A stretch of 55,247 nt of DNA from Deltaproteobacteria bacterium (GTDB lineage: Bacteria; Desulfobacterota; DSM-4660; Desulfatiglandales; B25-G16). The stretch is from positions 1-55,247 of the forward strand of contig JAFDDT010000005.1 in NCBI GenBank assembly GCA_019310725.1. The letters run 5' to 3'. This document shows, piece by piece, positions 8,264 through 12,060 of the stretch (positions are counted from its first letter, which is position 1; each line of letters starts with the position of its first letter). The notes below the pieces were generated by a model. That model saw only the letters and a list, made by a program, of their open reading frames with translations, did no database searches and was not told the DNA's origin. The position numbers were made by a program, and so were the translations under genes.

Positions 8264-9112
8264 CTAGTACCAACCCCTACCGGTCTTTTTTCCCAAGTTA
8301 CCTGCCCTCACCATCGTCTTTAACAGACCGGGAGAAACCCATTTGTTTTCCTTGTTGAGTTCCTTGTAAAGGTATTCACTTACAAAATATGCGATATCAA
8401 TACCGGTCAAATCCATCAATTCAAAGGGTCCCATGGGATAATTGAGCCCGTTTTTCACGGCCACATCCACATCCTCGATGGATGCAATACCTTCCTCCAC
8501 AATCCTTATCGCCTCTAGCATGTGAGGAATCATTATCCTATTAACGATAAAGCCCGGCGAATCCTTTTTTACTTCCACGGTTATCTTGCCCAGTTTTTGG
8601 GCAAATTCGGTGGTCGTTTTGATTGTTTCATCGCTGGTTGAATAACCCCTAATTATCTCAACAAGTCTCATTAATGGAACTGGATTAAAAAAATGCATTC
8701 CACAGACCTTATCAGGCCTCTTCGTGCTCGCTGCTATTTCTGTTATAGACATAGATGAGGTATTGGTCGCCAAGATCACCTCAGGTCTACACAGTTCATC
8801 TAGCTCCTTGAAAACCGCCTTTTTGAGATCTAAGTCTTCAATAACAGCCTCTATGATGAGGTCAGCACCCTTGAGGTCTGCCATGTCTACGCTACCTTTT
8901 ATTCGCCCGAGGATTGCATCTTTCTCATTGGCATCCATCTTTCCTTTTTCCACACTCCTGGCAAGAAAAGCTTGTATCTTTTTCATGCCCCCTTCCACAA
9001 ATCTCATCTCAATATCTCTCATGATAACATCGCACCCTATCTGGGCTGCGATCTGAGCAATGCCATTACCCATGGTGCCTGCTCCAACTACACCTATCTT
9101 TTTGATTGCCAT
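8264..9112 (-). CDS. 3-hydroxybutyryl-CoA dehydrogenase
   Basis: IGVVGAGTMGNGIAQIAA, ATNTSSMSITEIA, GMHFFNPVPLMRLVEII, DSPGFIVNRI. Confidence 0.93.
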   Translation of the reverse strand: MAIKKIGVVGAGTMGNGIAQIAAQIGCDVIMRDIEMRFVEGGMKKIQAFLARSVEKGKMDANEKDAILGRIKGSVDMADLKGADLIIEAVIEDLDLKKAVFKELDELCRPEVILATNTSSMSITEIAASTKRPDKVCGMHFFNPVPLMRLVEIIRGYSTSDETIKTTTEFAQKLGKITVEVKKDSPGFIVNRIMIPHMLEAIRIVEEGIASIEDVDVAVKNGLNYPMGPFELMDLTGIDIAYFVSEYLYKELNKENKWVSPGLLKTMVRAGNLGKKTGRGWY

Positions 9113-9301: not shown

Positions 9302-10396
9302 TCACCCAACCATCAGCTTTCTTACCCTATTATCAAGGTATCTGGAAAGGTTAATAGAGGTTTTTGGCGACCACCCAAAAGACTGTTTCCAAACATCGCC
9401 ACTTTCCATGCAGAGATAGATCCCTAAATCCTCATGCCATTTTTTTAATCTTTCCGCTAACTTAGAATACATTTCAATTCTAATTGGCTTAAAATATCTG
9501 AGTTTTCTGTCCAAACCAGTAACAAATTCGCCATCAAAAATCTTTGTTTTCGGAAATCTTCTCTTAATGGCCCATTTAAGGGCTGGCATGTATCTAAAAG
9601 AACCAAGGCTTATCCAGATTATTGATTCCGGATCAATATATTTCTCTAAAAGCCTGACTGGCTCTTCCAGGTCCTCATCCCACCTCGGATAGTAAAACAA
9701 AGGATCAAAATGAAAAGCCAGCACAAAGCCGGCTTTTTGGCAGTCATGGGCGGCGAGAATCCTCTCTCTCAGGCTCGCTGTCTTACGTTCTTCACCAGTT
9801 ACGACACGAGGGCTATTAAGAGACCATGCGACAACGATCCTTTCTCGATGTATGCTTTTGAGTAGCGATTGCACCGAAGAGGTCTTTGTCTTTAGCTCTA
9901 GGATACAGTTTTTCCTATGAGAAAAGACAGGAAGCAGATAATCAGTCCATCCGGTAAGGTAATTGAGCGCGAGGCTGTCAGTAAACTCCCCGGTCCCGAT
10001 CCTGAATATCCTCCCAGGAAAGCTATCGATATATTCGCCTATTTCATCGAGTTTCTCTGGCAGGTTAGTATAAACCCTCAGTGATGGTTGATTAATATAG
10101 GATTGAAGAAAGCAATAACTGCAGTCCATGGGACAGTTAATACCGATATTTAGTATCTGGTAGCCGCAGCAAATATATCTTTTTGTCCCCGGACAAGGTT
10201 TGAGAAACTCCCCTTTGTGATGGATGATCCGGAGGGATTCCTTGTCCATCTCTTCGGTACCCTCAGGTAAAGCCAAATCGTGTGAATCAACAAGTTCTTT
10301 CGGTATATCCGGTAACCTCTTAGGTATCACTTTAGCAAGGGAGTCGCTCTCAGCTCCCCTTTCAATCAAAATCCGCCTGATTGTAAATTGTTTCAT
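9302..10396 (-). CDS. spore photoproduct lyase-like radical SAM protein
   Basis: CCGYQILNIGINCPMDCSYCFLQSYINQP (CxxxCxxC), LELKTKT, VVAWSLNSP, FDPLFYYPRWDED, ISLGSFRY. Confidence 0.85.
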   Translation of the reverse strand: MKQFTIRRILIERGAESDSLAKVIPKRLPDIPKELVDSHDLALPEGTEEMDKESLRIIHHKGEFLKPCPGTKRYICCGYQILNIGINCPMDCSYCFLQSYINQPSLRVYTNLPEKLDEIGEYIDSFPGRIFRIGTGEFTDSLALNYLTGWTDYLLPVFSHRKNCILELKTKTSSVQSLLKSIHRERIVVAWSLNSPRVVTGEERKTASLRERILAAHDCQKAGFVLAFHFDPLFYYPRWDEDLEEPVRLLEKYIDPESIIWISLGSFRYMPALKWAIKRRFPKTKIFDGEFVTGLDRKLRYFKPIRIEMYSKLAERLKKWHEDLGIYLCMESGDVWKQSFGWSPKTSINLSRYLDNRVRKLMVG

Positions 10397-10563
10397 CGTC
10401 TAAATAGTGTCAGTAGTCTGTTGTCAGTCGTTAGTCGCTTTTTAATATTTTCTAACCCCGGTACCTTTTCTTCAACGCCACATGCATTCTTAACTAGAGT
10501 GTTTAATGATGGTTTAAGTTTTCAATAAAACTGGGACCTTCTGCTACGGACAACTAACAACTT

Positions 10564-11556
10564 TCAATGGACATTACCATTGCTAGTTTTCCAAAAATCT
10601 GTAACCCTTTCTAATCCAGATAAGCTATATAAATCAGCTAACTTCTCTTTGAGCTCTTTTCCTTTTGTAAAAACTATTTCAAGCCTATAATTAATACCCT
10701 CAAAAGATGGCGGGGGGATTATTTTCACCCTTTCAGGAAGAGGGAGCGCAGAAACGCCCTTGATAAATTCACTTTCTGCCTTCATAAGAGATGGAAATCG
10801 TCTTGTTTTGAGTACTTTCACTATGGTCTTCAATTTTTGGGGGTTGCTCATCCTATTACTGTGCAAAATCTCTGTGACTTCTCTTTCATTTATAACCTCC
10901 TCTATTGACCGCCCTTCCCTGCTGGCAATTTCCATTATCCACTGAATGGCTTCCCATTGTTGATTGAAACTCCATTTGAAGGCCATGAATAACTCATTGA
11001 TCTTTAGGCGATCCTTTGTATCAAGGCTCATCATTGGGCCCGCTACTCTTAGTGACAGCCTCTCCGCGGAAATAGAGTGCCTTATTGGCTCCTCAAGCCC
11101 CTCCAAACCCAGGAATAGCTTTAGTGTTTGTCTGTTGGCGGGGATATCTAGCATGGGCATGAATTGTGTTATTATTTGTTCATGCTCAACGAAACGGGTA
11201 AGCCTCTGCAAAACCATTGCCTTTTCAATCGCATTCATTTTTCGTTGAAGGAGATTGTCATATAGGTTGAGCAAAAATGCCTTAAAGGGAGGATAACCAT
11301 GGGGCAACACCTGGCAGACTATATCGGACCATCCTAACTCCTTTGCCGCCAGTAATCTGCGATATCCTGCGACCACTGTGTAGTGGCTCTCTGAATCTTC
11401 CATCAAGTAAGGCGGGTTTAGCACACCAAATTCCTCAATGGAGGCCTTAAGTTGCTCCAGCCTGAAATCAAAGCTCATACAAAACCTACCTGGATCCAGA
11501 TCAATTTCCCATAGAGCTATCTTTACAGGGGTGCTTTCTAATGAATTTTTTTCCAT
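10564..11556 (-). CDS. ParB-like N-terminal domain protein (orphan)
   Basis: FDFRLEQLKASIEEFGVLNPPYLMEDSESHYTVVAGYRRLLAAKELGW...YDNLLQRKMNAIEKAMVLQRL; start at ATG 11556 preceded by ggaggtgattaga. Confidence 0.8.
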   Translation of the reverse strand: MEKNSLESTPVKIALWEIDLDPGRFCMSFDFRLEQLKASIEEFGVLNPPYLMEDSESHYTVVAGYRRLLAAKELGWSDIVCQVLPHGYPPFKAFLLNLYDNLLQRKMNAIEKAMVLQRLTRFVEHEQIITQFMPMLDIPANRQTLKLFLGLEGLEEPIRHSISAERLSLRVAGPMMSLDTKDRLKINELFMAFKWSFNQQWEAIQWIMEIASREGRSIEEVINEREVTEILHSNRMSNPQKLKTIVKVLKTRRFPSLMKAESEFIKGVSALPLPERVKIIPPPSFEGINYRLEIVFTKGKELKEKLADLYSLSGLERVTDFWKTSNGNVH

Positions 11557-12060
11557 TCTAATCACCTCCAACAAGGGTCTCTGTCTAATACTATGAGCCC
11601 CTTACCAGTTGGCAAAATCGTTTACAAGGAGCAAAGGTCTTGGCGTTTCAATAACAACCTCTTCTCAAGAACCTTATAACCTACCTGGGGAATGATTTCT
11701 CAAAAGGAGGCAGTGAGATAGGAACTACTTAACAAATATCTTGTAACTATTCGTAATAACATAGATATTCTTTGGTATTCAAAAAAGCGTTGACAAACGA
11801 TTCACAACAAAGTAAACAGGACATTAGAAACGGCAAGTAGGAGTTTAAAATTTCTTTGCCCGGCAGAAATGCTTTTTTCAACCTGTTTTCTCCAGAGATC
11901 TCTACTTGCCTTTTTTTTCAAAGGTTTCAGGGAATCTCAAAAGGCCTGCCATGTGAACTTCACATACGGGCTTTTCTTGTATTTATTGCTATGGTTTATT
12001 TCCTAAATAAACCACTAACCACATTTTTCCAACGAAAAACTCAAAAAGGGAGGAAGAATC

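Follow-up and report, generated by a model that had tools for sequence, protein, structure and literature searches.

The window, that is, the whole stretch of 55,247 nucleotides analysed from contig JAFDDT010000005.1 of a Deltaproteobacteria bacterium, contains two neighboring genes on the minus strand. The upstream gene encodes a ParB-like protein and the downstream gene a radical SAM enzyme resembling spore photoproduct lyase (SPL). The strand, order and spacing of the two reading frames are as described in the earlier note on this DNA. The host, an anaerobe, is probably related to the sulfate reducers. The features of the locus are as follows:

11556..10564, minus strand: orphan ParB-like partner, 330 aa from ATG
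11299..11523, minus strand: ParB-CTPase/NTP-binding fold of the partner, aa ~12-86 (Pfam ParB_N, Foldseek, hhalign)
11356..11367, minus strand: P motif GYRR (GxxR), aa 64-67, with G64 in 116/116 and R67 in 115/116 of the partner sequences that have the ParB domain
11221..11259, minus strand: Box III-like motif DNLLQRKMNAIEK, aa 100-112, with conserved residues
10957..11289, minus strand: HTH/helical region, aa ~90-200 (weak HTH_ParB match; hhalign to canonical ParB)
10564..11025, minus strand: C-terminal half of the partner, aa ~178-330, the SPL-linked part, encoded alone in some families
10397..10563, no strand: non-coding spacer of 167 bp, unusual, since the genes overlap in relatives
10396..9302, minus strand: SPL-like radical SAM enzyme, 364 aa (matches to PF20903, SPL in the PDB and Foldseek)
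10166..10198, minus strand: PCPGTKRYICC signature, aa 67-77, with the extra cysteines C68, C76 and C77 (residue counts)
10112..10135, minus strand: radical SAM cluster motif CPMDCSYC, aa 88-95, Cys in 100/100
9971..9997, minus strand: GTGEFTDSL, aa 134-142, with E137 at the position of the SPL hydrogen-donor Cys (alignment)
9401..9418, minus strand: YLCMES with C329, aa 327-332, Cys in 98/98 aligned sequences

An alternative TTG start at 11574 would make the ParB-like protein six amino acids longer. The spacer is an exception within its own genus, the closest relatives instead having a 4-bp gene overlap. A search of the genome returned no further full copy of the spacer, and its interpretation as a repeated element was rejected on this basis. 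The gene parA does not adjoin the ParB-like gene, as the earlier note had observed. The canonical parAB pair of the genome is located on another contig (C64), and the protein in the window is thus a second, orphan ParB. The ParA-binding motif LG(K/R)GL is missing from it, whereas the canonical ParB of the same genome carries LGRGL. Its score against the Noc family TIGR04285 is 49 bits, below the cut-off of 315.

The product of the second gene matches PF20903 above the cut-off (1.9e-27) and the Geobacillus SPL in the PDB (4fhg, 2.3e-15). The Foldseek match to SPL 4rh0 (6e-8) was obtained on a low-confidence model, predicted poorly from five sequences (pLDDT 53). Both SPL-type motifs named in the earlier note, CxxxCxxC and FDPLFYYPRWDED, are present: the first is the CX3CX2C arrangement C88-C92-C95, and within the second only FDPL is strongly conserved. 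Against the TIGR04070 equivalog the protein scores 105 bits, under the cut-off of 400. In B. subtilis SPL, C141 gives the hydrogen to the thymine radical, with Y99/Y97 acting as a relay (PMC3742179, PMC5368176). At this donor position (C141 Bs / C140 Gt), all 100 SPL-like members have Glu, versus Cys in the three references (3/3). The first residue of the Tyr pair (Y97/Y99 Bs), here Y94, is retained in 100/100 members, and the second in 2/100, being otherwise I, V or F. The extra cysteines are nearly invariant (C68 99/100, C76 95/100, C77 99/100), and the signature containing them is missing from Bacillus SplB and the TIGR03886 references. The change from Cys to Glu also occurs in a wider paralogous SPL-like subfamily, so that of the two features only the PCPGTxxYICC signature is peculiar to the ParB-linked group. 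A second SPL-like subfamily, with a GE..D.L motif and without PCPGTxxYICC, was noted in some genomes (L203-L206), its proteins in L205 and L206 being 396-436 aa long.

By the features tested, the enzyme does not appear to be a spore photoproduct lyase. SASP genes (PF00269) were found in 0/61 relatives, with a positive B. subtilis control, and together with the replaced donor Cys this led to the rejection of spore photoproduct repair as unlikely. The loss of the donor Cys and the second Tyr counts against the preferred explanation given below and argues for other chemistry. One such possibility is a regular modification, introduced by the pair into a DNA base, tRNA, rRNA or nucleotide, with the ParB-like protein bringing or activating the enzyme. 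This possibility deserves attention but is rather unlikely. The invariant extra cysteines are consistent with it, as they could bind a second Fe-S cluster or provide another hydrogen donor. The SPL of C. acetobutylicum uses C74, located elsewhere in the pocket, as its donor (PMC5368176). A donor may therefore stand at another position, and by this analogy C76 or C77 could act as the substitute here.

The relation between the two genes was followed in an evenly drawn phylum sample of 345 genomes. The profile of the C-terminal half of the partner, A6, matches 196/345 genomes at a threshold of 1e-5. When A6 is compared with the SPL profile, both are found in 193 genomes, neither in 137, SPL only in 11 and the partner only in four (phi 0.91, Fisher odds ratio 601, p 8e-77); the p-value overstates independence, as the genomes are related by descent. 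In all four partner-only genomes (G005, G151, G213, G333) the partner is situated at a contig end, where the SPL-like gene would follow. Apart from these four, the genomes without SPL, which should have a canonical ParB, are not matched by A6, and the profile is thus specific. Five of the 11 SPL-only genomes (G236, G314, G319, G325, G395) have weak SPL matches and probably represent the paralogous subfamily as in G034, G055, G006 and G047. The remaining ones, not each of which was inspected, are mostly incomplete or begin at the edge of a contig. With the full-length partner profile (E<1e-30), 148 genomes are found, and with the SPL profile 204, of which 144 are in common; in many of the apparently SPL-only genomes of this comparison the partner is present in a shorter or more divergent form.

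In the full-length pass, both genes were placed in 122 genomes: adjacent in 73, distant on the same contig in 13 and on different contigs in 36. The 73 adjacent pairs, out of 86 on one contig, are on the same strand, and the other 13 are separated by 5 kb-2.3 Mb. The co-occurrence persists even when the two genes are unlinked. An example of such behavior is the genome G098, a single contig of 99% completeness, which is without both genes, while four genomes of the same genus (G135, G198, G250, G355) carry both on different contigs. This joint absence is direct support for linked loss. Of 60 relatives from the same order, about 50 have the full-length ParB-like protein, and nearly the same number have the SPL-like protein. 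Fetched loci that contain both genes have them side by side, with order and strand unchanged, often with a 4-bp overlap; the exceptions in the order are G021 and G053, with the genes on separate contigs. The distance from the partner stop to the SPL start in 83 pairs has a median of -1 bp and a commonest value of -4. Pairwise protein distances of the two partners are correlated (Mantel r 0.84, N=77), as expected from co-inheritance, although the species history alone would give the same value. A single scan of genome contigs yielded only five close relatives, among which several bear the label Desulfobacteraceae or Deltaproteobacteria.

The two genes might be ordinary neighbors with no functional link, a reading for which the 167-bp gap of the window speaks. 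It is extremely improbable given the co-occurrence of unlinked genes, the phi value and the median spacing, and chance adjacency is refuted by the phylum-wide distribution. The pair is kept or lost together across hundreds of genomes, and hence the ParB-like and SPL-like proteins very probably form one system. That they are functionally linked is near-certain. The two-gene system proposed in the earlier note is thus borne out, with homologues adjacent in most genomes rather than rarely, 73 of the 86 same-contig pairs lying side by side, and with near-perfect co-occurrence even without linkage.

The N-terminal ParB fold recognized in the earlier note was found again by profile and structure searches. 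The ParB_N match of the window protein (1.7e-6) lies above Pfam's cut-off, and the domain is matched in 34/34 relatives. The model of the partner (pLDDT 77, weaker after aa 250 and of low confidence in the C-terminal half) matches ParB-CDP 7bnk in Foldseek with an E of 6e-11, and Noc structures also match. By hhalign, aa 12-199 align with canonical ParB at 98.5%, thereby spanning the HTH region, for which the HTH_ParB match itself (0.0042) is under the cut-off. The earlier note considered the GERRxRA box divergent because it reads GYRRLLAA (aa 64-71). This view was not sustained, as GYRR conforms to the usual GxxR phosphate motif and Box III is kept. In the Box III-like motif, N101, R105, N108 and E111 are invariant among 34 order-level relatives, and E111 is kept in 113/117 of the wider partner set. 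The D/E-N pair of nucleotide-binding motifs is retained as well. With GxxR and Box III both intact, the ParB motif is not degenerate, and the nucleotide pocket looks intact from its residues. According to Kaljevic et al. (2025, PMC12704722), GxxR constitutes the P motif, and the sequence does not allow prediction of the nucleotide specificity; CTP, ATP and GTP are therefore all possible for the partner.

The ParB domain is not the most widely kept part of the partner. This is the C-terminal half, in which P255 and E286 are near-invariant and which in some families stands alone beside SPL. Stand-alone versions of 168-176 aa lie directly upstream of the SPL-like gene in G121, G156 and G188 (family f43), G242 (f75) and G276 (f81), and at these five loci no ParB domain is encoded just before them. 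The obligatory part of the partner is thus the C-terminal ~150 residues, not the ParB domain. One example of the stand-alone half matched no Pfam or NCBIfam family. A profile alignment with the ParB C-terminus, the dimerization domain, is in register and weak (single-comparison P 0.003, probability 10%). The PDB matches of the C-terminal half (5e-4 and 6e-3 over short stretches, with a designed protein among the best) were judged to be due to chance. In family f43, a 160-aa HAD-hydrolase-like gene is located 5′ of the stand-alone partner (L101, L102, L199).

These versions bear on two further explanations. According to the first, the partner is an activator, chaperone or specificity subunit acting through its C-terminal half, and the ParB and HTH parts are a lineage addition unrelated to DNA loading. 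The wide retention of the C-terminal half and its stand-alone occurrence in three families fit this explanation, which deserves attention but is nevertheless unlikely, as G64/R67 and E111 of the nucleotide pocket are clearly constrained in most lineages. According to the second, the ParB-like protein regulates transcription of the SPL gene, in the way that some Noc/KorB/VirB relatives bind to DNA sites, and the enzyme works alone. The HTH region and the upstream position in the operon would suit a regulator. Such a role is still less probable, since the co-occurrence holds with unlinked genes, the versions reduced to the C-terminal half are without the HTH, and inverted repeats in the 180 bp upstream were as frequent in 12 genomes as expected (2 observed vs 2.0). 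A regulator with a palindromic operator was rejected for this absence of an inverted-repeat excess.

The surroundings of the pair vary between lineages. In 26 loci (among them L087, L089, L091, L095, L111, L112 and L158), purC is the immediate upstream neighbor of the ParB-like gene, overlapping or abutting its start, and it is often preceded by a small Rho_N-domain protein. A GT2 glycosyltransferase takes this upstream position in about 20 loci (including L086, L088, L103, L110, L114, L121 and L132); at L103 it is directly upstream of SPL, with no partner adjoining SPL. A short-chain dehydrogenase (SDR) follows SPL in several lineages. In a Fusobacterium record (L120:1852-3723), the SPL-like domain is fused behind a domain that by eye resembles a nucleoside phosphorylase, and an SDR comes next. 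In 12 loci of the window's order (L046, L048, L063 and others), a gene for a 75-aa NifU-domain Fe-S carrier comes after the SPL-like gene; in the window, the pair has no such neighbor. Downstream of the pair in the window (8264-9112, same strand) is a 3-hydroxyacyl-CoA dehydrogenase gene, kept in many order-level relatives and probably an order-specific neighbor. The neighbors differ and none is constant, so that the pair alone is the unit. The purC, GT2, SDR and NifU-domain neighbors do not point to repair and count against it. A glycosyltransferase, purC or SDR beside the pair in several lineages would agree with a regular modification, against which stands the lack of a constant third modifying gene.

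No close relatives of the window's ParB-like protein were found on plasmids, and no A1/A2 relatives on viral contigs, in the collections searched; plasmids and phages gave distant SPL matches only. A mobile or phage element was rejected on these grounds, and a core cellular role is likelier than mobile defence. PADLOC returned no defence system for the SPL-like protein and only a weak MTase_II match for the ParB-like protein. The match is caused by the ParB fold, and an anti-phage defence system was accordingly discarded. Both results also weigh against a modification system. A DNA photolyase was not found in the genome.

Repair or modification of DNA by the pair, as put forward in the earlier note, is plausible. 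The preferred explanation as a whole, an adaptor clamp and a radical SAM enzyme acting together on DNA in light-independent lesion reversal, is the leading one and is put forward tentatively, at somewhat under an even chance. The pair would be an obligate two-protein system, in which the nucleic acid acted on by the SPL-like radical SAM enzyme would most likely be DNA, with the ParB-like protein as the dedicated adaptor of this enzyme. The C-terminal half would be needed with the enzyme and may bind it or dimerize. In most lineages this half is fused to a predicted ParB-type NTP-binding clamp and an HTH; the NTP-switched clamp and the HTH would load onto DNA, thereby guiding the enzyme to its target. 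The families with the C-terminal half alone manage without the clamp, which counts against this explanation. The role would most likely be direct reversal of base lesions in anaerobes, without light and unlike the spore photoproduct reaction. Counted in favor of this explanation are the co-occurrence, the joint absence in G098 and the tight gene spacing, the intact radical SAM motif and SPL homology of the enzyme, the P motif, Box III and ParB-CDP/Noc-like fold of the partner, its stand-alone C-terminal half beside SPL, and the absence of photolyase and SASP noted above. More doubtful is the statement that the radical SAM enzyme is placed on DNA by a ParB-type clamp switched by CTP or another NTP, for light-independent base reversal or programmed modification in non-sporulating anaerobes, which is possible rather than likely. 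If true, DNA maintenance would have one more class, separate from those of photolyase, spore photoproduct lyase and excision repair.

For orphan ParB proteins, few partners have been assigned, and to our knowledge no substrate has been identified for the SPL-like enzymes of non-sporulators. Through the pairing, the two questions can be tested jointly, and interaction studies could use the C-terminal half on its own as a small protein. Here, two well-known folds, the nucleotide clamp of ParB and a radical SAM enzyme of the DNA-repair type, are joined in an obligate unit that occurs in dozens of family-level groups within one phylum. The two-gene system is real and, judged from the open-access literature, apparently undescribed; in the part of that literature covered, "spore photoproduct lyase" and "ParB" occur together only in a Clostridium genome paper, with one mention each.

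Among the known systems, SplB of Bacillus and Geobacillus (TIGR04070/PF20903) shares with the SPL-like protein the radical SAM core, CX3CX2C, the first Tyr and the TK motif, with 24-25% identity in the SPL fold match. It differs from the protein described here, which has Glu for the donor Cys, has lost the second Tyr, and carries extra invariant cysteines, a C-terminal extension and an obligate partner in relatives without SASP. The TIGR03886 proteins of cyanobacteria and Acidobacteriota are likewise SPL homologues in non-sporulators, but they retain the donor Cys (SCYTDP) and are without the PCPGTxxYICC signature. Two further systems were compared by description. GAmH_0507 of Nautilia profundicola, 23% identical to B. 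subtilis SPL, is an SPL homologue of a non-sporulating anaerobe with a short-chain dehydrogenase next to it, an arrangement also seen in some lineages here; no ParB partner is reported for it (PMC2628731). The SPL of C. acetobutylicum has a conserved donor Cys away from C141, as C76/C77 might be. The orphan proteins with the ParB-CTPase fold, including Noc, were surveyed by Kaljevic et al. (PMC12704722), whose main text mentions neither radical SAM nor photolyase. The partner resembles them in its location outside parAB, its intact GxxR and its lack of a ParA-binding motif, and differs from them in being chromosomal, vertically kept, tied to one enzyme and equipped with its own C-terminal half.
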